From a virus: a stretch of 58,744 bases of DNA. Positions within the stretch are counted from its first letter, which is position 1, and the number at the start of each line of letters is the position of its first letter. The position numbers and the translations under genes are program-made. Under the pieces are notes generated by a model. The model was not told the DNA's origin. It saw only the letters and a program-made list of their open reading frames with translations, and did no database searches. The stretch spans positions 1 through 58,744 of the IMG/VR virus record IMGVR_UViG_3300032282_001014; one strand, 5' to 3'. Of this stretch, positions 810 through 58,744 are shown piece by piece.

Positions 810-998
810 TTCCTATCGTCGGTGCGTTGCTTGGCACACTTGCTGAAAGTGGACTAGGTCTATTGTCTAGTGCTATTCAAGCAAAAGGCAAAGAGGTTGT
901 TGAGAACACGCTTGGCATTAAGATTCCAGACAACCCTACTCCTGCGGATGTTGAAAAACTACGTCAGCTCCAATACGACCATGAAGAACGATTACTAG
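549..998. repeat. Long direct repeat, left copy
   Basis: Positions 549-998 are collinear with 58295-58744 without insertions. The first part is diverged, the last 103 bases (896-998) are identical. The distance is 57,746 bases. Confidence 0.9.
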
Positions 999-16549: not shown

Positions 16550-16912
16550 TTAGTCGTCCGCACTGATAAAACCTGCAAACTCATCGTTGTTGAGTATACC
16601 GAAATCCCAACGCTGAGCAGTATATTGAAATTGATTCCTATCCCAGCTTAACACATTTATTATTGCATGATATTCAGTTATCACTGACATAGCTACTGCG
16701 CAAAGCGTAGGATCACCTATTATCAAAAGATAATCTCCTTGCTGCCAATCTTTAAGTTCCCTACGAGCCTTATTCAATAACTGATTAGTATCGTAAGGCT
16801 TACGAGGATTAGCAAATATAGCACGTAGCTTCCCATATTTTTTAGCGTCTGATAAATCTTTATTATTGTCAACTTGCACCACGTATACTGTTCTTTCGTT
16901 ACCCTGTTCCAT
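16550..16912 (-). CDS. Hypothetical protein linked to DNA polymerase
   Basis: The 120-residue protein is read from MEQGNERTVYVVQVD; a start 12 codons upstream lies deeper inside the polymerase gene. It overlaps the 3' end of the PolB gene by 14 bases. It has an alternating hydrophobic/charged pattern (YVVQVDNN, GDYLLIIGDPTLCAVAM) that looks alpha/beta, with GDP at a turn. I recognise no family. The position between PolB and Sak4 suggests a replication accessory role. Confidence 0.65.
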   Translation of the reverse strand: MEQGNERTVYVVQVDNNKDLSDAKKYGKLRAIFANPRKPYDTNQLLNKARRELKDWQQGDYLLIIGDPTLCAVAMSVITEYHAIINVLSWDRNQFQYTAQRWDFGILNNDEFAGFISADD

Positions 16913-18740
16913 TTTTCTTCTTCCTAGGTTGTTTTGGGGGAGGAGCAACTAAAGCCAACTGCTCCGCTGTTAAATACTCCTTGCAACCTACAGCTATAGC
17001 TATCTTAATTGCTTCTTTGATATACCACGTATAGTCTAAATCTTTCGGATGTATAACTTTGTCTTTCAAAATCATGCACGCTTTCGCACCATCCGTTTTT
17101 GGAACCTTGTTTCCGTTGGAAACGTATCTAATAGGATCCACTTCACCATCGCTAGATTGGTACCAACGAACGACTTTGCCAAGGAATTTGCCAAACTGCT
17201 GCCCACCTCCGGTGACATTCCGTGCCGAGATAAAATCTTGAAACGGAGCACTGCGTATAGTCTCCTCAAATGGCGTACCGACCGCGAGCCACTGCCCGAC
17301 TGCATCTGAAGCGACCTGCGCTGTGGGGTTCTTCCGCAACGATAACGGCGCATATATACCTTTCACTTTGAGACTGCGATCCGGTTTAATTGCTATGTAG
17401 TTATTTACGTCTTTCATAGCTAACGCTCTATATGGCGTAAATTCAAACTCAAATCGCGAAGTTTCACTAAACTTAGCTACAACCCTCTGAATGGTTTCAT
17501 GCTGCGATTTAGAGTAGCGAATCGCTATGCCGTCGGTGTTAGCAGATAAAGTTATAGCACCTGCTTTCTCCAACCATTCAATCAGCATTAAAAGTGTAAA
17601 CTGGCCAGTTAGCGTTACCGCTAACATCAGATCAGGGGAATAGAGAACTGAGTATTTGCTGGCCAGTTTACCGAAAGTGCCATTTAACGAAATCTTTAGA
17701 GTTTCGTTAATTACCTTGTCGCCGGTTCGTTTTGCCTCGAGCCGTTTGTTATAAATATTTCTGTACTCATCGATAAACGGTTTCCCGAGCGACTTGGGGA
17801 TAAAACCACATTCAAGGATAATCGAGGGGTAGAATGAGGCAGCATCGATATCGCAGATGATGTCGTCACCAGCGATGTAGCAGATTGATTTGTCGTGTAC
17901 ACTATGTATTCCTCCAACTCCAAGTTGATATTCACCTACACCGAATTTTATTGTAGTTCCACCCAAAAAATCTGGCAGTATGACGTGCCCTGTGTTTTTA
18001 TTCATATCAAACACATGCACAGAGACCTTATCCAATAAACCTTGTAACTCGGGATCCATAAACTTCAGAAACTGAGGCGGTATGTATCTTACGGTATTCG
18101 GTACTTCATTATCCCTACGCTCAAGCTTCATAGACGTTACGTAAGCTTGTTCAGCCATCTGAGAATCAGACTTACTACGCATGTCAGTTTTATACTGCTT
18201 TGACATGTCTACTCGCAGCATAATCTCTTTTTCAAGATGACGTAACAACTCTTGCGTAGTGTCTACGTCGTTATGACAATACTCAAGCACCAAAGGTTCC
18301 TGCTCTGGTGTTATATACGCATCATGAGCTATCGGCATGTCTTGCAGTATAGGCATATGCATACGTGCTCCGTAAGCTTTTAAACCTACGAACGACGGAG
18401 CCACCTCAATAATGTCTATAGTGTCTATCATTACGTCCCTGAGACTGAACTTACGCATTGCCTGCCAGTATGCCACACGATTAACGATCAAGTCATCGGC
18501 TATACGCTTGATTTCCAACGAGGTGCGCCCACCACAAAACGCAGCAACCACTACGTTGTCAAACGAACGACTGTTAAAACCTACGAACGTAGCATCAGGT
18601 TGCTGTACAAATTTCAATAGTCTCTCCGCTGAGTTTTCCTCATGCTGCCAGAGATCGAACCACTCGCCCGTGTCTACGTTTTTAGCGCAGAATAACGTGC
18701 GGTTAGGTAAGGTCTCAGTATCGAACACAAATGTAGCCAT
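16899..18740 (-). CDS. Family B DNA polymerase with 3'-5' exonuclease
   Basis: The 613-residue protein contains the exonuclease motifs FDTET (Exo I, residues 6-10), VGFNSRSFDN (Exo II, 53-62) and YCHNDVDTT (Exo III, 154-162). The polymerase motifs follow: DIDAASFYPSIIL (A, 297-309), LKISLNGTFGKL (B, 348-359) and SANTDGIAI (C, 399-407). All catalytic acids are present. It is short for PolB and ends in a basic tail PRKKKNGTG. It should replicate the phage genome with the Prim-Pol/helicase and helicase on the rightward arm. Its start overlaps the DUF3310 stop. Confidence 0.95.
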   Translation of the reverse strand: MATFVFDTETLPNRTLFCAKNVDTGEWFDLWQHEENSAERLLKFVQQPDATFVGFNSRSFDNVVVAAFCGGRTSLEIKRIADDLIVNRVAYWQAMRKFSLRDVMIDTIDIIEVAPSFVGLKAYGARMHMPILQDMPIAHDAYITPEQEPLVLEYCHNDVDTTQELLRHLEKEIMLRVDMSKQYKTDMRSKSDSQMAEQAYVTSMKLERRDNEVPNTVRYIPPQFLKFMDPELQGLLDKVSVHVFDMNKNTGHVILPDFLGGTTIKFGVGEYQLGVGGIHSVHDKSICYIAGDDIICDIDAASFYPSIILECGFIPKSLGKPFIDEYRNIYNKRLEAKRTGDKVINETLKISLNGTFGKLASKYSVLYSPDLMLAVTLTGQFTLLMLIEWLEKAGAITLSANTDGIAIRYSKSQHETIQRVVAKFSETSRFEFEFTPYRALAMKDVNNYIAIKPDRSLKVKGIYAPLSLRKNPTAQVASDAVGQWLAVGTPFEETIRSAPFQDFISARNVTGGGQQFGKFLGKVVRWYQSSDGEVDPIRYVSNGNKVPKTDGAKACMILKDKVIHPKDLDYTWYIKEAIKIAIAVGCKEYLTAEQLALVAPPPKQPRKKKNGTG

Positions 18741-19003
18741 CAGTCCTGATTAACGTAATTTCTAGTAGGTTCAGAGCCATCATCGGGTAACCCTAATCCT
18801 GGCGAGCTGACTATCTCAATATACTTCTCAAGGAAATGCTGAGCTTTTAAAAGGTCAGGTAAACCGTTTTTATTTTTCCAACGGGTTACATACTTAGTGA
18901 TTTGACCTTGGAAATAATCAAGATCGTTAGCTACTACGTAGTCCCAATGTTGAATACCTGAGCGGTAATGTGAACCTGCAACCTGCTTATCATTTGCACT
19001 CAC
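18740..19003 (-). CDS. DUF3310 protein
   Basis: The 87-residue protein starts at GTG, seven bases after AAGGAG. The whole protein is the DUF3310 domain: KQVAGSHY, IQHWDYV, LDYFQGQITKYVTRWKNK and LKAQHFLEKYIE are its typical conserved pieces. DUF3310 proteins are widespread in phage replication/nucleotide blocks and are often called SaV-like; the biochemical role is not firmly known. It overlaps the HD gene by 14 bases. Confidence 0.88.
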   Translation of the reverse strand: MSANDKQVAGSHYRSGIQHWDYVVANDLDYFQGQITKYVTRWKNKNGLPDLLKAQHFLEKYIEIVSSPGLGLPDDGSEPTRNYVNQD

Positions 19004-19487
19004 TAGCCATCTCCTTAATTAAATTAAACAATTCTTTTTCACGTCCGTACAGCATCGTTTCCTCAGCGTAAGCAACATAACGATTGAATATACTTCTCAT
19101 GTTACTGTTACCTAAAGACATTTCTTTTATGCAAAACAACGCGCCTTGTGCTACGTCTGCTAACTTTAAAGTTCTTGTGTCGTCAGGGTAAAGTTGGGGC
19201 ATACCTAAACCGGCTTCTCTAAGTAACTTGTCCTCAAGCTCGCTAACCTGATCACCGATGCCGTATTTATGCTTTGCAGGAGAAGGAATGTCGCCAGTTT
19301 GATGCTCTGCTAAATCATGCAGAAGAGCAGCCAGTATCAGTCCTCGACTCGGGTTAGGATCAAGAAGCATACACAGCAAAGCAACACCATGCGAATGATG
19401 GCCAACGGTCTCAGTCATGAGCGTAGTCACCGTGTGGTATCGCTTTACAGCAGCACCGGCTAAAATGAATTCAAGGGTAGTTTTCAT
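18990..19487 (-). CDS. HD-domain nucleotide phosphohydrolase
   Basis: The 165-residue protein has the HD fold: paired His in GHHSHGV (residues 29-34), His57-Asp58 in LLHDLAEH, and Asp111 in LKLADVAQ. It resembles YfbR-like 5'-nucleotidase or dNTPase enzymes that act on deoxynucleotides. It is directly downstream of the thymidylate synthase homologue and the hypermodification genes. This suggests it may lower competing dTMP/dTTP pools or recycle nucleotides. The substrate is inferred from context. GGAG precedes the ATG, with its own upstream TATAAT box. Confidence 0.8.
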   Translation of the reverse strand: MKTTLEFILAGAAVKRYHTVTTLMTETVGHHSHGVALLCMLLDPNPSRGLILAALLHDLAEHQTGDIPSPAKHKYGIGDQVSELEDKLLREAGLGMPQLYPDDTRTLKLADVAQGALFCIKEMSLGNSNMRSIFNRYVAYAEETMLYGREKELFNLIKEMASECK

Positions 19488-19496
19488 GCGTTCTCC

Positions 19497-19563
19497 AGTT
19501 ATGAGTTATGCAAAGAATTATAGGTTAAAAATAGCATTAGTTGATTGTATTTTCAAATCAAGA
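19497..19563 (-). promoter_or_regulatory. Leftward promoter region with leader box before HD gene
   Basis: On the minus strand a TATAAT box (plus-strand 19517-19522 region) lies about 20 bases before a CATAACTCATAACT leader and GGAG. No good -35 box sits 17 bases upstream. Instead TTGATT...AATCAA half-sites around GAAAATAC are present, and a close match lies upstream of the leftward promoter at 25972-26000. An activator-dependent or weak internal promoter is plausible. Confidence 0.5.
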
Positions 19564-20562
19564 TTAAACTTTTGATTGCTTTTTAGCTTCTCTATTGCTT
19601 ATCCATAGAAGCGTAGCATTTTTCCAATCAGACGCTTTTATCTTTGCAGCGTAACCTTTTCCGTCTGTAACTTTACCTCTACGCATTGCGCTGACTGTAG
19701 CCATAGGTACAGCCACACCTTGAAAGAACGGATGCCGGTAAACAACCTTATCATTGAACGGCTTCGTGCAAAACTCTTCTGCATCCCACAAAAAACTCTG
19801 GTAGTGCCCGTCTAACATGAGTGGTAGAGGTTTAACTAGGCAGTTAGTATAATGGTCGTATATATTATCATTCGGAGGAGTATTTATATATTTTTCAGCA
19901 TCGTACAGTTCCGTGTACAAATGTAAATTATTGCTAATTTGACGGTACACGCCAACCTGCATACCAACGGAGGTAGCTACGAACTCTTGCAGTACGCTGA
20001 AATGCACAGCATTTGCACCGTAGGCTCCCCACCAGATATCGTTAGACCTGTTAAACACTGTCATGTCTAGAAAGAAACCTCCGCGAATACTGAACACAAT
20101 CTGCGTGTTGCAAGCTTTGTCTTTAGTTTCCTTCGTTAAATCTTTATCGTCCCACATCTGAATCACAGCTTGCCGAGACCTAGGATCTTTACGTAAAAGA
20201 TTTATAACTTCGATGAGTTGATCGTGTCCGAAATGCTTACGCCAGCGATGTCCGTAGGCAGCGTTGAACACTTCTCCGTCGTCACTGTACTGTTCGATCT
20301 GACGATTGAATTGTTCCAAGAATGCAACATCATTGCGTCCTGCAAGCATCCATATCGCTTCCATGAGGTGAAAAATAGGATTGGCGTCTCGTCCGGCATG
20401 GAATAATACCCTCTCTGTAGGTTTCAAATACGTTGTAGTTACAGGCTCTGGAAACACCAACGCTGGTCCGTTGCGGGTCTCCTCAGGTTGTAAGTTGGCT
20501 ACTCTAAGCTTCCAGAATATTTCAGAGAAAGCTTGATTGACATTACGTACAGTTATTTCCAT
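19564..20562 (-). CDS. Thymidylate synthase homologue (possible dUMP hydroxymethylase)
   Basis: The 332-residue protein has the thymidylate synthase core. Active Cys151 lies in KACNTQIVF, phosphate-binding Arg residues in DPRSRQAVIQMWD (126-138), NRSNDIWWGAYGANAVHF follows (171-188), and HLY is at 214-216. Asn184 is at the position that favours uracil over cytosine substrates. In phages with hypermodified thymidine, TS-like enzymes make 5-hydroxymethyl-dUMP from dUMP. The gene abuts hypermodification genes, so this role is more likely than plain dTMP synthesis, but the sequence alone does not separate the two. Confidence 0.85.
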   Translation of the reverse strand: MEITVRNVNQAFSEIFWKLRVANLQPEETRNGPALVFPEPVTTTYLKPTERVLFHAGRDANPIFHLMEAIWMLAGRNDVAFLEQFNRQIEQYSDDGEVFNAAYGHRWRKHFGHDQLIEVINLLRKDPRSRQAVIQMWDDKDLTKETKDKACNTQIVFSIRGGFFLDMTVFNRSNDIWWGAYGANAVHFSVLQEFVATSVGMQVGVYRQISNNLHLYTELYDAEKYINTPPNDNIYDHYTNCLVKPLPLMLDGHYQSFLWDAEEFCTKPFNDKVVYRHPFFQGVAVPMATVSAMRRGKVTDGKGYAAKIKASDWKNATLLWISNREAKKQSKV

Positions 20563-21486
20563 TTAGAACTCCATCTCTGGTTTATATAATGTTTTTGGTA
20601 CACCTTCACTTAACACAACTCGGCAGTATTTACCATACTCACACATTACGTTCTGCACATCGTGTAAAGTTAAATCAGTTATGCGTAACTCTTCTGCTAT
20701 GTCTTTATTTATGTCGTACAGTATTTGATTGAAATCATCTTGCTGCCAACCGGCAAAAGGTTTTCTATTTTGCAAATAGTTTAACCCTCGCATGCTCCCT
20801 GGTCCCATGGGTGCGAAAGTGTATAAGTCCTCCGCATCGTCAAGGTGACCTTTTGCGTATGAAAGATCGGACGCAACCTGCCCTGCCATAAACGTGCTGA
20901 TTCCATAGCATTTAGATAACGTATCGACAAAGCTTTGAACCGACTTACCTTCATTTTCCTTCCATAGTGAGAAGTATATCTCTTCAGATGCCTCGATAGC
21001 AGCGCTAATAATATGTTTCGCAAGTGAATACGATTTGCATTTACCGACATCCAACTTGGTCGGGTAAACCATATACGCTCCACCGTAAACTTTTGTCGAT
21101 TCTTTTTTGAAATTCTCAATGGTTTTAGAGAACGCTTTACCATCAAAATCCTCTGGGGAACATGGAATAATATCTTCATATAGAAGCTTCTCAAGGGTCG
21201 GTGGCCAGTTAACTAATCTTGCAATTAATAAAGAGAACCAAAGATTTTTATCTTTGAGATTCAAATTGATTATTTCTTTTATTATCCATTTTGACACCCT
21301 ATCGTGCCTACGATGTATATTAGTAAACTTGTATTTTTCAAACACAGGGTCATTAGTCCATGGTTTGTCACCACCTCGCTCTTTTACAATCCTAATGACT
21401 TCTCTTTCCCACACGAAATAAAGCAGTGACTCCATCGTGCAGACATTTTCAGCAGTCGGTCTAGGGTATGGGCAGGTCTCAACCAT
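20563..21486 (-). CDS. 5-hmdU hypermodification protein, HMUDK helical/aGPT-Pplase-like
   Basis: The 307-residue protein contains the signature KPWTNDPVF then KYKFTNIHRRHDRVSKWI (residues 41-68). I know this from putative DNA base hypermodification proteins (5-hmdU DNA kinase helical domain and alpha-glutamyl/putrescinyl thymine pyrophosphorylase group). GPGSMRGLNYL and a final helical part follow. In related phages these proteins act on 5-hydroxymethyluracil in DNA or on its pyrophosphorylated form. It overlaps the P-loop kinase gene upstream and is followed by the TS homologue, as expected of a single pathway. Exact reaction is inferred. Confidence 0.8.
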   Translation of the reverse strand: MVETCPYPRPTAENVCTMESLLYFVWEREVIRIVKERGGDKPWTNDPVFEKYKFTNIHRRHDRVSKWIIKEIINLNLKDKNLWFSLLIARLVNWPPTLEKLLYEDIIPCSPEDFDGKAFSKTIENFKKESTKVYGGAYMVYPTKLDVGKCKSYSLAKHIISAAIEASEEIYFSLWKENEGKSVQSFVDTLSKCYGISTFMAGQVASDLSYAKGHLDDAEDLYTFAPMGPGSMRGLNYLQNRKPFAGWQQDDFNQILYDINKDIAEELRITDLTLHDVQNVMCEYGKYCRVVLSEGVPKTLYKPEMEF

Positions 21487-22060
21487 TCTCAGCCTCTTTA
21501 AAATATCCTACTACTCCAGTTATAGGGTCTTGCCAATCTAACCAGCGAACATCGTAACCACCGGCTTCAGTTAAAAGTTCTGCGCTACGGTGACATTGTT
21601 TGTACGCCATACGCATAGTCTTTTCTGGGTCAAATTCTTTATCGTTACCGGCGGCTTGGCGACGAGCTAAAACTCTCTCAAGGCACACTTCCCATGGTGT
21701 GTCTAAAAACGCAAAGATACCATTGTGATCTCTAATAATAGGTGCTGTATGTCCTTTGTCACTAGACTTAGACATCAACAAACCTTCCACAATTACGTGC
21801 CCATACGGTAAAGCTTTCACAATACGCTCTGCTATTTCTTCCTGAGTTTTTATTCCGTCAGCTCCACCGCAGGTGTTTTCATAACTACCTACTATGAATA
21901 CAGGAGCCTGAATACCCCAATTGTTTGCGTCTACCTGATACCCTACAGGTCGGTCTGGTTTACCTCCTAACGCACGTTTCGGTAGTTTCTCTAAAAACCT
22001 ACGCACAATTGTAGTTTTGCCCGAACCATTACAGCCACGAATATTGACTAATTGATGCAT
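21479..22060 (-). CDS. P-loop kinase, candidate 5-hmdU DNA kinase
   Basis: The 193-residue protein has Walker A GCNGSGKTT at residues 9-17, a later hydrophobic strand VIVEGLLMS (Walker B/LID start) and an Arg-rich lid CLERVLARRQ. It looks like a small nucleoside or nucleotide-type kinase. In thymidine-hypermodifying phages a P-loop kinase phosphorylates 5-hydroxymethyl-dU in DNA. Here its genes on either side belong to that pathway. GAGGAG precedes the ATG and it overlaps both neighbours. A deoxynucleoside kinase role is the main alternative. Confidence 0.8.
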   Translation of the reverse strand: MHQLVNIRGCNGSGKTTIVRRFLEKLPKRALGGKPDRPVGYQVDANNWGIQAPVFIVGSYENTCGGADGIKTQEEIAERIVKALPYGHVIVEGLLMSKSSDKGHTAPIIRDHNGIFAFLDTPWEVCLERVLARRQAAGNDKEFDPEKTMRMAYKQCHRSAELLTEAGGYDVRWLDWQDPITGVVGYFKEAENG

Positions 22061-23052
22061 AAGAAATGTTCTCCTCTATACGGGAAACCAGTCTCAGGAA
22101 ATATTGCTGCTTTCTGCTTCCAAGTCAGATTGTTAGTTTCGCATTCTTGACGCAACCAGTCTGGTAACTTAGCAGCTCGCATCTCTTTAAAAATATCACA
22201 GTTTATATTACGTGACTCTGCCCACTCAATACGCTCCCATGCCATGTCAGCATACACACCAGGATACCGACGACCGAAGAAATGGTTCTTGAACGTACAC
22301 AAGTTAGACTCAAAAGTAAACTTGCTAACACCCCAGTGAGGATATTTCTTTGTGTAAAACTTTTCTAAATACTCGTCTGCTTGAATAGTCAACCAGCTAC
22401 ATATCTTTTTGAAATCTAGGTACTCACCATCCTGCCCGTTAGGCAACCTTCTATCCCATACTAAGTCGTCTCTACCTAACAAAAAGAACATACCGTTACG
22501 ATGCGACTTGCTACCTGACTTATTTTCAAATATAAGGTCTTCACAGTCTGCACCGAATCCGTTTAAATAGACGTACTCAAGATAACTGAAAGACGACAAC
22601 CTTCCGAAAGAACGGTAATTGTTATACACCATGTCCCATAAAGCAGCGTAATTTCTACCTTGGAACATTTTAGTTTGTGAGCCAAACTGTTTAACTAATT
22701 CAGCATAAGCTTTAATTGCTAATACGGTGTCTCGTTTCTGATACCGGCGGTCTGTGTCAAACTGCAAAGTGTCCCAATTATCGTTGAACCATGCGTCAAA
22801 CTGAGTCAGCTTCGCTCCGACAGGAGGAAGCTCAGGCAGCTGCTCAAATAGACGCAACGACGTGATAGGGTTCTGCGTCATACCGTTCAAGAACGCAAAC
22901 CAGAGTATCTGCTCACCATCCCAGTTATAATGCTTAGACAACATAGGCATGTAAAGATACACGAGTCCTGGCATGACGCCGTTCTTCAAATTCATGACGT
23001 ACAGATCGTCAAAATACTCTGCCCTGTTTTCAGGTAGACGATAATCAAGCAT
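22048..23052 (-). CDS. Amino acid:DNA transferase-like hypermodification enzyme (AADT/ADDT)
   Basis: I start this 334-residue protein at MLDYRLPENR, which follows GAGGAAATACG; a start 16 codons upstream lies inside the PLP-enzyme gene. The sequence matches a phage family placed with thymidine hypermodification: MPGLVYLYMPMLS (27-39), WFAFLNGMTQNPITS (51-65), FDTDRRYQKRD (98-108), FGRLSSFSYLEYV (149-161) and SGSKSHRNGMFFLLG (179-193). Family members install an amino acid on phosphorylated 5-hmdU in DNA. The gene sits between kinase and PLP enzyme. I recall the family from motif pattern; the amino acid used is unknown. Confidence 0.8.
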   Translation of the reverse strand: MLDYRLPENRAEYFDDLYVMNLKNGVMPGLVYLYMPMLSKHYNWDGEQILWFAFLNGMTQNPITSLRLFEQLPELPPVGAKLTQFDAWFNDNWDTLQFDTDRRYQKRDTVLAIKAYAELVKQFGSQTKMFQGRNYAALWDMVYNNYRSFGRLSSFSYLEYVYLNGFGADCEDLIFENKSGSKSHRNGMFFLLGRDDLVWDRRLPNGQDGEYLDFKKICSWLTIQADEYLEKFYTKKYPHWGVSKFTFESNLCTFKNHFFGRRYPGVYADMAWERIEWAESRNINCDIFKEMRAAKLPDWLRQECETNNLTWKQKAAIFPETGFPYRGEHFLCIN

Positions 23053-24004
23053 CGTATTTCCTCGTATAAAATGGTTCAATGATTTTAGAGTTAGGCGCAC
23101 TGCCTACAATCCAAAAACCCACGTGTTCTTTTTCAAACAGGCTAGTCTGCTTTAGCCAGCGCCACATTTTAGCTTCATACGTCGGGTGGAACTTTATACC
23201 GTCAAACTCTTCCCCGTTAAACTTATCGCTGTACTTGCTGAAACCGGTGTCGTGCAAACTATGATGACGTATTTTGAACGGTAGTTTGTCCATGTCAACA
23301 CCCATAACTTTTAGACGCTCACGCACCCAGCTACGCTTGTCTGGTCCGATACCAATAGTGAACAAGGTTTCTAAGTTTTTACTATCCCTGCTTAAACCAA
23401 GTAAAACGCTGGTCAGGGAGTTGCAAGAACCTGCAGGCATGATTAGCGTCTCTACGTCATTAGGCATGTTAGAGACCTGATTAGCGCCCACCTCGTGGAA
23501 CTTCTGCACGTACTCTGCAGGGTAACGGTCATGCGGCACGGTGATGCCGTATTCAACCACTAACGAAGTTGGCTTAGTCAAATCTTGAACCATACGCTGC
23601 AATATAGGATTATATGGTCCGTTAGCATATTCAAACTCTGCACCGAATCCGTAAGCAATTCTTGGGTTTTCGTGTTTCAGAACTGTCTCTGGTTTGCTGT
23701 AAACAATTTGGCGAGCTTTGAGGTTGTAATGTGCTCCAACAATCGCAGACATCGACAACTGAGGCGACTGAATACTCGCTCCGGTCACTATGTGAGTACG
23801 GTTGGTCTTGAACTTGTTTACGTACCATATCAACTGCCTCATCTTAGATCCGTTCGGACCACCGTAACCGAGAGGTGCAAAGTAATCTTCACGCTTGAAC
23901 CAGATACCTTTATGGTTTTCCCATGGGGTATGAACACCTAAATGTTCTTCCCACCGGACTTGGTTTCTATCAAGAGACAGTTCAGGAAACACTGTGTCAC
24001 TCAT
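23045..24004 (-). CDS. PLP-dependent enzyme of the hypermodification cluster
   Basis: The 319-residue protein has the fold type II PLP layout of ACC deaminase/D-cysteine desulfhydrase-like enzymes. FKREDYFAPLGYGGPNGSKMRQL carries the probable Schiff-base Lys54 (described in pieces: FKRED, GSKMRQL), and PAGSCNSLTSVLLG (190-203) is the phosphate-binding loop. In M6- and ViI-type phages PLP enzymes trim the amino acid attached to thymidine, usually by decarboxylation. AAGGAG precedes the ATG. It overlaps the AADT-like gene downstream and the winged-helix gene upstream. Confidence 0.8.
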   Translation of the reverse strand: MSDTVFPELSLDRNQVRWEEHLGVHTPWENHKGIWFKREDYFAPLGYGGPNGSKMRQLIWYVNKFKTNRTHIVTGASIQSPQLSMSAIVGAHYNLKARQIVYSKPETVLKHENPRIAYGFGAEFEYANGPYNPILQRMVQDLTKPTSLVVEYGITVPHDRYPAEYVQKFHEVGANQVSNMPNDVETLIMPAGSCNSLTSVLLGLSRDSKNLETLFTIGIGPDKRSWVRERLKVMGVDMDKLPFKIRHHSLHDTGFSKYSDKFNGEEFDGIKFHPTYEAKMWRWLKQTSLFEKEHVGFWIVGSAPNSKIIEPFYTRKYDA

Positions 24005-24402
24005 CCGAATATCTCCTTCAACTTATCGTATAATGCTTTAGCTTCTTTAACAGTCAACGTGTCTATGTTGACCTCTATCTGTTTGACCGGCTCAGGCACA
24101 ATGACTGTAACTTCCTGAGTCTTTTGAACAGGCGGTAACATTTCATACCTATCGCCAACAGCTCGGTAAACCTTTATACTGCGTCTACCCACGCCACGTT
24201 TTTCCAACTCGATGTAACTGGTCAACATTTTACGGGAACTCATGAAATTAACGGCTACATATACCTGAGCCTGTTGAACATTCAAAGCTAACGCTATATC
24301 CTTAGCTGACTTGTCGGGATGGTCTTTCAGGTACATCCATACTCTTTTGTTGACTGAAACGGCTAGACCTGATTTCTTCAATTGTTCTGCGATTTTCGTC
24401 AT
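24001..24402 (-). CDS. Winged-helix DNA-binding protein
   Basis: The 133-residue protein has an N-terminal helix-turn-helix (residues 18-60: RVWMYLKDHPDKSAKDIALALN, broken here as RVWMYLKDH and SAKDIALALNVQQAQVY), a Pro/Val linker and a short C-terminal helix LTVKEAKALYDKLKEIF. Its start follows GGAG and its stop overlaps the PLP gene (ATGA). It may regulate the early operon or bind modified DNA. The membrane-protein gene upstream overlaps its first 100 bases in another frame. Confidence 0.7.
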   Translation of the reverse strand: MTKIAEQLKKSGLAVSVNKRVWMYLKDHPDKSAKDIALALNVQQAQVYVAVNFMSSRKMLTSYIELEKRGVGRRSIKVYRAVGDRYEMLPPVQKTQEVTVIVPEPVKQIEVNIDTLTVKEAKALYDKLKEIFG

Positions 24403-33849: not shown

Positions 33850-34084
33850 TGACTTCGCTCATGAGATCATGCTCTGCTTCTCAGCGTCGCCGGTGTCCGC
33901 TGACATCAACGCAACACGGGTGTATACCGTCATGGAGCAGATCCGCAAGGACGAGCGTGAACGCTGTGCCCAGAAAGCAGACATGCTAGCCAAGAGCTGG
34001 CGAGGTAACGAGAGCTTTAGCCGAGAGGTGCGGGAGACATCGGCAATGGCTTGTGACCTGCTAGGTGCGGTGATACGAGGATGA
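33839..34084 (+). CDS. Small hypothetical protein between terminase genes
   Basis: The 81-residue protein overlaps TerS by 11 bases and TerL by four. It has ERERCAQKADMLAKSW near its middle, the same kind of charged Cys helix as in the 32782-33030 protein. No enzyme motif is visible. Its location suggests a packaging accessory or a remnant of duplication; unknown. Confidence 0.6.
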   Translation: MTNDDFAHEIMLCFSASPVSADINATRVYTVMEQIRKDERERCAQKADMLAKSWRGNESFSREVRETSAMACDLLGAVIRG

Positions 34085-35652
34085 ACGCTCCGCTCTCACC
34101 AACGGTAATGCTAGACCTGATCAAGAAGGAACAGGACAGGCGAGCTGCTACCTCAAGCCTATACGAGTTCGTGAAGCAGTCGTGGCACGTAGTAGAGCCA
34201 GGAGTACCCTTCGTGCCCAGCTGGCACATTGAGGCTATCTGCGAGCATCTTGAGGCAGTGTCGGCAGGGGACATAACTCGACTGCTCATCAACATCCCGC
34301 CACGACACTCCAAGTCAACCATCGTGTCCGTCATGTGGCCAATGTGGGAGTGGATTGAACAGCCAGAGGAGAAGTTCCTGTGTGCCTCGTACTCCGGTGT
34401 GCTGTCAACCCGAGACAACTTGAAGGCACGACGACTGATACAGTCGCCATGGTATCAGGAACGATGGCTCAAGAACTTCACGCTGTCAGGCGACCAGAAC
34501 GCTAAGCAGAGATTCGAGAACGACAAGACCGGCTACCGCATCGCGACCTCGGTAGGCGGTACAGCGACGGGTGAGGGTGGATCCCGCCTCCTGCTCGATG
34601 ACCCACACGGCGCACAGGACGCACAGTCCGACGCAATGCGTGAGACGGCATTAGAGTGGTTCGATCAGGTATGGTCAACCCGACTCAACGATCCCAAGCG
34701 AGACGCCATGGTAACCATCATGCAGCGTCTGCACGACCGAGACATCAGCGGACACATCCTTGAGGACATCAAGGGATGGGAGCACATATGCATACCGGCA
34801 GAGTGGGATGGCAGGGAACGCAAGACAGTGCTCGGTGGCTATGACCCTCGTAAGGTCAAGGGAGAGCTGATCTGCCCAGAGCGATTCGGCGACAAGGAGA
34901 TCACTGCACTCAAGCAGTCCCTCGGCGTGTACGGCACCAGCGGACAGCTACAGCAGGATCCGGCACCGATAGAGGGTGGTATCCTGAAGACCAAGCACTT
35001 CCAGCAGTGGTCAGCAGACAAGGAGCTGCCGCAGTTTGAGTACATACTGCAGAGCTACGATTGCGCATTCACCGAGAAGACCACAGGAGACCCGACAGCC
35101 TTCACAGCCTATGCGGTGTTCTCGATGAAGGGTAAGCGACAGGTCATGCTGATAGACGCATGGGACGAGCACCTCAGCTATCCCGCACTGCGGAAGAAGG
35201 CGATAGCAGAGTGGAACACGGAGTATGGTGGTGCCACAGACGACAGCCCATACGCACGGGCGAGACGACCCAACAGGGTACTTGTAGAGGCTAAAGCAAG
35301 TGGCCAGAGCCTAATACAAGATTTGCGCTTGGCGAATGTGCCAGTTGTAGGTTATAATCCTGGTAATGCTGACAAGGTATCCCGTGCCCATCAGGCAGCT
35401 CCCGTGTTGGAGCAGGACATACTGTGGATCCCTGAGTCAAAGAAGAATCGTGGTCACTATGTAACATGGGCAAAGGGATTCCTCAAGCAGCTTGAGAAGT
35501 TCCCGATCGCTGAACATGATGACTACGTTGATACGTTCACACAGGCTATCATCTACCTACGGAATGACGGGTGGTTCCAGATGCCAGTGGCAAAGGACAT
35601 TGATGAACCAGCACAGAAGAAACGCGAGAGGATAAACCCATATGCAGCCTAA
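34081..35652 (+). CDS. terL: Terminase large subunit
   Basis: The 523-residue protein has the ATPase-nuclease layout. Its Walker A variant is PPRHSKST (about 73-80), Walker B is RLLLDDPHG (about 169-177), and a coupling-like region follows. The nuclease part has YDCAFTEKTTGDPTA (from about 326) and a late acidic site HDDYVDTF (about 479). It drives DNA into the prohead and cuts concatemers. The gene overlaps its neighbours. Its first three quarters look clearly richer in G+C than the rest of the window, with a return near 35285, inside the nuclease part. Confidence 0.92.
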   Translation: MNAPLSPTVMLDLIKKEQDRRAATSSLYEFVKQSWHVVEPGVPFVPSWHIEAICEHLEAVSAGDITRLLINIPPRHSKSTIVSVMWPMWEWIEQPEEKFLCASYSGVLSTRDNLKARRLIQSPWYQERWLKNFTLSGDQNAKQRFENDKTGYRIATSVGGTATGEGGSRLLLDDPHGAQDAQSDAMRETALEWFDQVWSTRLNDPKRDAMVTIMQRLHDRDISGHILEDIKGWEHICIPAEWDGRERKTVLGGYDPRKVKGELICPERFGDKEITALKQSLGVYGTSGQLQQDPAPIEGGILKTKHFQQWSADKELPQFEYILQSYDCAFTEKTTGDPTAFTAYAVFSMKGKRQVMLIDAWDEHLSYPALRKKAIAEWNTEYGGATDDSPYARARRPNRVLVEAKASGQSLIQDLRLANVPVVGYNPGNADKVSRAHQAAPVLEQDILWIPESKKNRGHYVTWAKGFLKQLEKFPIAEHDDYVDTFTQAIIYLRNDGWFQMPVAKDIDEPAQKKRERINPYAA

Positions 35653-56119: not shown

Positions 56120-56377
56120 ATGGATACTAAAATTTATCAATTCTACGGTATTGACACAGCTATGGCTTTATTGCGTCCTAACGCTAAGTGGGAGATTAGT
56201 AACACCACGTTTACACGTTGGGAAGATCCACGTCCATGTCCTAGCATGGAAGAAGTATTAGAGACGATGGAGAAGATAAAAGCTTTTGAGGACAGTATCA
56301 ATACGATCTGGACTGAAGAGCAGTTAGAAAAAATGCTTGGGCAGCAGAAAATATATGACAAAGCGGTGAACGGATGA
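56120..56377 (+). CDS. Small tail assembly protein candidate
   Basis: The 85-residue protein MDTKIYQFYGIDTAMALLRPNAKW... has WEISNTTFTRWEDPRPCPSMEEV, a pattern found in small tail assembly or fibre-chaperone proteins of phages. The charged helical C-terminus (EEQLEKMLGQQKIYDKAV) fits. It starts three bases after the second glycine-rich gene. Confidence 0.65.
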   Translation: MDTKIYQFYGIDTAMALLRPNAKWEISNTTFTRWEDPRPCPSMEEVLETMEKIKAFEDSINTIWTEEQLEKMLGQQKIYDKAVNG

Positions 56378-56982
56378 ATATAAACAGTTTATTTCCGACA
56401 GCTGTTGGCTTTTCTAAGTTAGATCGTGAGTTAACTGGAGAAGAATTAAAATTTATCAAAGAGCAAGCTCGTCATGCTAACGAAGGTAATACTACTAGCG
56501 ATAACAGAATTATTTTGAAATCTGCTGAGATGACAGAGATTCGTGAGTTTATTGAAGACGCAATGCTTAATTATTTTAAGTCGGTATATGCGCCTAAGTT
56601 TGACGTAACTCCTTATATTACTCAGAGCTGGGCTAATTTTACTGATCCTGGTCAGTTTCATCACAGACATGCTCATCCGAATAGTTTTATTTCTGGTGTG
56701 TTCTACCCGCAAGCCGATAGAGAAATAGATAAAATTTATTTTTACAAAGACGGTTACGAAAGAATTAAATTTCCTGCTGCTGAGTACAATCAACATAATT
56801 CAGAAAGCTGGTGGTATGAGACAGGTACTGGTGATTTGATTATTTTTCCGTCTAACCTGACGCATATGGTGCAGACAAAGCAGGGTGATGAAACACGTAT
56901 TAGTATTTCATTCAATACGTTTTTAAAAGGTTATATTGGTTCAGACGAAAGTTTGACAGGTTTACATTTAGGAGAAGAGTAA
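56374..56982 (+). CDS. 2OG-Fe(II) oxygenase-like protein
   Basis: The 202-residue protein has a double-stranded beta helix pattern with the metal site HHRHAHPNS (His96-His101) and a distal His in NLTHMVQTK with DETRISISFN (Arg for 2-oxoglutarate). This is the 'putative 2OG-Fe(II) oxygenase' type common in aquatic phages. The substrate is unknown: a virion protein, host nucleotide or modified base are options. It overlaps its upstream neighbour by four bases. Confidence 0.8.
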   Translation: MNINSLFPTAVGFSKLDRELTGEELKFIKEQARHANEGNTTSDNRIILKSAEMTEIREFIEDAMLNYFKSVYAPKFDVTPYITQSWANFTDPGQFHHRHAHPNSFISGVFYPQADREIDKIYFYKDGYERIKFPAAEYNQHNSESWWYETGTGDLIIFPSNLTHMVQTKQGDETRISISFNTFLKGYIGSDESLTGLHLGEE

Positions 56983-58555: not shown

Positions 58556-58744
58556 TTCCTATTATCGGTGCGCTGCTTGGCACACTTGCTGAAAGTGGAC
58601 TAGGTTTATTGTCTAGTGCTATTCAAGCAAAAGGCAAAGAAGTTGTTGAGAACACGCTTGGCATTAAGATTCCAGACAACCCTACTCCTGCGGATGTTGA
58701 AAAACTACGTCAGCTCCAATACGACCATGAAGAACGATTACTAG
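58552..58744 (+). CDS. GTA-type three-TM holin, copy 2, truncated at window end
   Basis: The first 64 residues (MIPIIGALLGTLAESGLGLL...) are seen before the window ends. They match the holin at 806-1318 except for a Val-to-Ile change at residue 5. The last 103 bases are identical to 896-998, so this is either the same gene met again on a circular map or a paralogue. Confidence 0.75.
   Translation, partial: MIPIIGALLGTLAESGLGLLSSAIQAKGKEVVENTLGIKIPDNPTPADVEKLRQLQYDHEERLL

Follow-up and report, generated by a model that had tools for sequence, protein, structure and literature searches.

Some viruses are known to disguise their DNA from bacterial restriction enzymes by amino acid modification of thymine. 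In Salmonella phage ViI (Vi01), an enzyme dependent on pyridoxal phosphate (PLP) reportedly acts as a decarboxylase, Pseudomonas phage M6 (Yuavirus) is said to use glycine and a radical S-adenosylmethionine (radical-SAM) isomerase, and combinatorial permutations are reportedly found in viral metagenomes. The DNA of M6 carries 5-NedU and that of ViI carries 5-(2-aminoethoxy)methyl-deoxyuridine (5-NeOmdU) (PMC6449724), the latter at about 40% of T (PMC11721090). We analyzed a predicted thymidine-hypermodification operon at positions 19564-24004 of the IMG/VR virus record IMGVR_UViG_3300032282_001014, the whole 58744 bp of which is referred to below as the window. As judged from the families of its enzymes, the gene set very probably links part of the DNA thymine to an amino acid that is then trimmed down to a short amine, a modification that would act against host restriction.

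All five operon genes lie on the minus strand and are transcribed in the order PLP enzyme, amino acid:DNA transferase (AADT), P-loop kinase, helical-domain protein (HMUDK_hel) of the 5-hydroxymethyl-deoxyuridine (5-hmdU) DNA kinase (HMUDK), and thymidylate synthase (TS) homologue, followed by genes for an HD-domain protein, a DUF3310 protein, and a family B DNA polymerase (PolB). An ATG start codon and a plausible ribosome-binding site were found for each of the five operon genes and for the HD gene. The preliminary description of this DNA had reported five consecutive overlapping minus-strand genes within positions 18990-24004. All five are present, with overlaps of 8-13 nt at three of their four junctions, whereas the TS and HMUDK_hel genes abut without overlap; the range also holds a sixth gene, encoding the HD protein, that had not been named.

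The TS homologue (19564..20562; 332 aa) matched PF00303 at 2e-21, and the Cys151 and Asn184 residues attributed to it earlier were located within KACNTQ and GANAVHF, respectively. It is 44-46% identical over 98-99% to the deoxyuridylate hydroxymethyltransferases of M6 and Bordetella phage, and its best PDB match was CMP 5-hydroxymethylase (6.5e-24), with thymidylate synthases ranking below (5e-13). In the alignment, this enzyme, which acts on cytosine, has an Asp at the position of Asn184, a difference that would be expected if the window protein uses uracil. These features point to a deoxyuridine monophosphate (dUMP) hydroxymethylase of the 5-hmdU hypermodification class. Both domains of a 5-hmdU DNA kinase appear to be encoded as well, by two genes. 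HMUDK_hel (20563..21486; 307 aa) matched PF18723 at 8e-41 and its M6 homologue at 3e-48 by profile. The P-loop kinase (21479..22060; 193 aa), the predicted catalytic half, has the Walker A motif GCNGSGKTT and matched phrog_800 (1e-19), with a sub-threshold match to PF18748 HMUDK_HMUD1 (2.5e-5) and profile matches to gp49 of Pseudomonas phage PaMx11 (2.5e-29) and to the M6 kinase (3e-18).

The AADT (22048..23052; 334 aa), predicted to load an amino acid onto the phosphorylated 5-hydroxymethyl group, matched PF18724 (ADDT) at 2e-16. Single-sequence searches of the PLP and AADT proteins against PDB chains gave no matches, nor did an AADT profile search, and among PDB chains the AADT was settled only by fold comparison. 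The best PDB match of its AlphaFold2 model (predicted local distance difference test, pLDDT, 89.2) was 8z2m, the PaMx11 5-PmdU glycinyltransferase gp46 (probability 1.00, TM 0.53/0.61, E 0.034), with 8-oxoguanine glycosylases ranking below. The PLP protein (23045..24004; 319 aa) had no Pfam match and matched phrog_3650 at 6e-76. Its AlphaFold2 model (pLDDT 83.6) matched the fold of D-cysteine desulfhydrase and 1-aminocyclopropane-1-carboxylate (ACC) deaminase (3e-10), in line with fold type II. Lys54, invariant across 42 aligned sequences, corresponds in a profile search to the lysine in the D-cysteine desulfhydrase motif GGNK. We predict that this protein is a decarboxylase of the DNA-linked amino acid, from the ViI gp226 (Vi01_182) family. 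The preliminary description had proposed profile and fold comparisons with the AADT, HMUDK, and PLP families as a check; these placed the proteins in the expected families. Its reading of the cluster as one for thymidine hypermodification agrees with all the family assignments and is backed by fold comparison for the AADT and the PLP enzyme.

Profile scores were computed from the window group, with ViI compared over stretches 1-50000 and 120000-157061. The TS profile scored 347 bits against M6, 330 against PaMx11, and 153 against ViI; the helical-protein profile scored 160 bits against M6 and 92 against PaMx11, with no match in the ViI stretches; and the kinase profile scored 98 bits against PaMx11, 62 against M6, and 34 against ViI. 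The PLP profile scored 252 bits against ViI (3e-76), 133 against Glutamicibacter phage Montesquieu (5e-40), and 12 against M6, and the AADT profile scored 221 bits against Zemanar, 211 against Montesquieu, and 114 against ViI, with no match to M6 or PaMx11. Of 147 invariant PLP residues, 83 are kept in ViI and 37 in M6, and K54 and an SPQ loop are common to the window and ViI, which points to a ViI-type PLP enzyme. The AADT tree split the window group, ViI, Zemanar, and Montesquieu from M6, PaMx11, and phiW-14 with 100/100 support, and the motifs GRLS and GSxS(H/N)RNG are common to the AADTs of the former set. The window AADT, which thus groups with ViI gp247 and actinophage AADTs, appears to belong to the ViI subclass rather than the glycine subclass of M6 and PaMx11, although ViI stands on a long branch and its exact place is unsure. 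The gene order is AADT-PLP-radicalSAM-kinase-helical-x-TS-HD-DUF3310 in M6 and AADT-FAD-acetyltransferase-kinase-helical-TS-HD-...-PolB in PaMx11, where FAD denotes a flavin adenine dinucleotide enzyme, and the sequences directly reveal a right-hand block in common and a left-hand module that has been exchanged. The operon is best described as an M6-type chassis carrying a putative ViI-type tailoring module, with an M6/PaMx11-like front half (TS, kinase pair, HD, and DUF3310) and a ViI-like back half (AADT and PLP).

A radical-SAM search (PF04055) that finds the M6 enzyme (1e-6) gave no match in ViI or in any of 22 window-group records. GNAT acetyltransferases were found in PaMx11 only, with none in ViI, M6, or the 22 window-group records, and a DAO-type FAD enzyme was likewise found in PaMx11 only, with none in ViI, M6, or 16 window-group records. 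The PLP enzyme was not found in phiW-14, PaMx11, or Zemanar. Neither the M6-type radical-SAM isomerase of the 5-NedU branch nor the PaMx11-type pair of FAD enzyme and acetyltransferase beside the AADT was seen in the window. Since ViI too has no radical-SAM, DAO, or GNAT match, the window holds the ViI partner set rather than an unexplained gap. The lack of radical-SAM and acetyltransferase genes had been recognized in the preliminary description, but the new base suggested there on this ground does not follow, because ViI likewise has neither; for the same reason we rejected the view that the radical-SAM absence is anomalous. Such arguments from absence depend on the completeness of the genome. 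An exact 103-bp repeat (window 896-998 and 58642-58744, the latter at the contig end) suggests that the genome, of about 57.7 kb, is nearly complete and either circularly permuted or terminally redundant. Given this repeat and the long records of relatives, mostly 53-59 kb, the window is probably close to the whole genome.

In the pathway we propose, the TS homologue would make 5-hydroxymethyl-dUMP to be polymerised into DNA, while the HD nucleotidase would deplete thymidine monophosphate (dTMP). The two-gene kinase would phosphorylate some 5-hmdU residues in DNA, the AADT would swap the phosphate for an amino acid, most likely serine joined through the oxygen of its side chain. The serine adduct would then be decarboxylated to 5-NeOmdU by the PLP enzyme, as in ViI. 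Catalysis by PLP enzymes proceeds through an imine and calls for a free primary alpha-amine; N-linked glycine has no free primary amine until the radical-SAM step, whereas O-linked serine has one. Because no radical-SAM gene accompanies a ViI-type PLP enzyme that needs a free primary amine, O-serine attachment and decarboxylation to 5-NeOmdU is, by analogy with ViI, the best reading of the operon, and we consider it likely. Several points weigh against it. Identity of the AADT to its ViI counterpart is only about 28%, and actinophage AADTs (about 35-36%), whose amino acid may differ, are nearer; the fold of the PLP enzyme usually serves beta-elimination or racemisation, and decarboxylation is predicted from ViI homology and from the activity reported for the ViI enzyme. 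A 5-hmdUMP kinase was not identified, and the base of this virus group is predicted from its genes.

The distance between the window and ViI AADTs and the closeness of the window AADT to those of actinophages, together with the long ViI branch in the tree, would also suit a pathway of the same design in which another amino acid (such as threonine, homoserine, ornithine, or lysine) is attached via its side chain and decarboxylated by the PLP enzyme to an undescribed base. The PLP enzyme, which must accept the product, is however clearly of ViI type, and we regard this alternative as possible but unlikely. In ten relatives (L050, L052, L053, L054, L057, L060, L061, L062, L064, and L069), a 248-256 aa methyltransferase-like protein is encoded between the PLP and AADT genes (10948-11715 in L064). 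It contains the class-I-methyltransferase-like motifs EPFGGCGVFS, GELD, and CDFPFF and had no match in Pfam, PHROG, or PDB. If this protein methylates the amine, those ten phages would carry a new base, which we offer as a lead only; the fuller scheme, in which the AADT uses neither serine nor glycine and the terminal amine is methylated in the ten relatives to give a methylated aminoalkoxy thymidine, is likewise possible but unlikely.

The fold matches of the PLP enzyme, best to D-cysteine desulfhydrase and ACC deaminase, raise the alternative that it performs beta-elimination like its fold relatives, for example converting an S-linked cysteine adduct to 5-mercaptomethyl-deoxyuridine, or has a free metabolite rather than DNA as its substrate. 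But where the D-cysteine desulfhydrase family has its QSN loop, or SNH in the profile search, the window enzyme has SPQ, as does the enzyme of ViI, whose product is the aminoethoxy base, and the PLP gene stands with the AADT gene in every relative with enough flank; we judge such activities improbable. A route through glycine, then radical-SAM and PLP steps to 5-NedU, with the radical-SAM enzyme supplied by the host or undetected, would fit the M6-like front-half genes, but it is most unlikely given the negative PF04055 search of 22 window-group records with M6 as positive and an AADT and a PLP enzyme that are not of M6 type.

Conservation of the operon supports 5-NeOmdU formation over loss of function. 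A single scan with the window PLP protein yielded 65 IMG/VR loci with 58-97% identity, and in all of those with long enough flank the AADT, kinase, helical-protein, and TS genes adjoin the PLP gene; two loci (L025 and L028) have that gene about 7 kb away and in inverted orientation. The ratio of nonsynonymous to synonymous substitution rates (dN/dS), calculated for the window and its two nearest relatives, was 0.03-0.09 for all six genes. As these 65 loci and dN/dS values show, the operon genes are under purifying selection and are not a chance arrangement. That they are inactive or repurposed in a group known from genes alone, with DNA of plain thymidine or only 5-hmdU, is hardly credible against intact reading frames, invariant catalytic residues, dN/dS below 0.1, and kept gene order.

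A further scan with the window PolB yielded 80 loci, and where enough upstream sequence is available, the ordered block as far as DUF3310 is present whole or is missing altogether, an all-or-none pattern that favours the proposed pathway. In four loci (L120, L130, L132, and L133), tblastn detected none of the cluster genes near PolB, and HMUDK_hel and PLP are absent from their whole records. Other genes lie between primase and PolB in these four, including a DCD-type dUTPase-like gene in L120 and L130; L130 also has a stand-alone DNA methyltransferase at 986-1699 (phrog_67, 3e-60). Comparison with this sister clade, which naturally lacks the operon, could show what the modification guards against. 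In L155, the AADT and onward genes are present, and the PLP gene was not found in its 39.9-kb record, which may be incomplete. The kinase occurs in two classes among otherwise close relatives, with 38-47% and 66-97% identity to the window kinase, suggesting gene replacement within the operon. Two different HMUDK_hel copies lie 57.4 kb apart in the 101,830-bp record of L045, which may be two related viruses joined during assembly. No bacterial or prophage relative of the PLP enzyme was found in a genome-contig scan with the PLP alignment, and therefore no host was assigned.

Among the neighbouring genes on the same strand, the HD gene (18990..19487; 165 aa) encodes a YfbR-like 5'-deoxynucleotidase (PF12917, 4e-10) predicted to remove dTMP so that 5-hmdU gets used, and it occupies the same place in M6 and PaMx11. 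The DUF3310 protein (18740..19003; 87 aa; PF11753, 3e-6) is a member of the conserved order, and the next gene encodes PolB (16899..18740; phrog_1252, 1e-164). PolB replication had been proposed in the preliminary description and is confirmed by this match, whereas the podovirus-like structure proposed with it rests on weak matches. A small helix-turn-helix (HTH)-like protein and possible regulator (24001..24402, minus strand; weak match to phrog_1324, 0.006) overlaps the PLP start; such a gene precedes PLP in 7 of the 65 loci and is not conserved in most relatives. A 2-oxoglutarate-Fe(II) oxygenase (56374-56982; PF13759, 5e-23) lies far from the operon, with no indication of action on DNA. 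The terminase large subunit (34081-35652) is nearest to those of Roseobacter phages CRP-901/902 (47%), and a closely related cultured virus was not found.

All families in the operon are already known, and so is the product that this large uncultivated lineage probably makes. No earlier description of this gene permutation or lineage was found in literature that excludes the main pathway papers (Lee 2018; Lee 2022; Wen 2024; Hutinet 2021). ViI shares with the window the AADT (Vi01_199, orf00247, gp247), the ViI-type PLP enzyme (Vi01_182, orf00226, gp226), a TS, and a P-loop kinase. However, its genes are scattered over a 157-kb genome, unlike the compact operon in the 58-kb window genome, its TS (35%) and kinase are only distantly related to those of the window, and a helical-protein match was not found in the ViI stretches compared. 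M6 has the kinase, helical protein, TS (44%), HD (33%), and DUF3310 (47%) genes in the same order, but its AADT is of another subclass, its PLP enzyme is distant, and a radical-SAM gene is located between the AADT and kinase genes; these three features are absent from the window. PaMx11 gp46-gp55 follow the order AADT-...-kinase-helical-TS-HD-...-PolB and include gp46, which matched the window AADT best in the structure comparison, but the place of PLP is taken by gp47, an FAD enzyme, and gp48, an acetyltransferase. In Montesquieu (MONT_38-MONT_52), an AADT (36%) adjoins PLP and P-loop kinase genes, with TS and helical-protein genes nearby, although this cluster is distant and has other kinase genes and another order, with AADT before PLP. 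A likely complete ViI-type pathway in five adjacent genes would be handy for reconstitution. Together, these comparisons show that thymidine-hypermodification pathways are modular: the front half, made up of hydroxymethylase, split DNA kinase, dTMP nucleotidase, DUF3310, and polymerase, stays the same, and the tailoring module joined to it varies: radical-SAM and PLP enzymes in M6, an FAD enzyme and an acetyltransferase in PaMx11, and a ViI-type PLP enzyme in the window.

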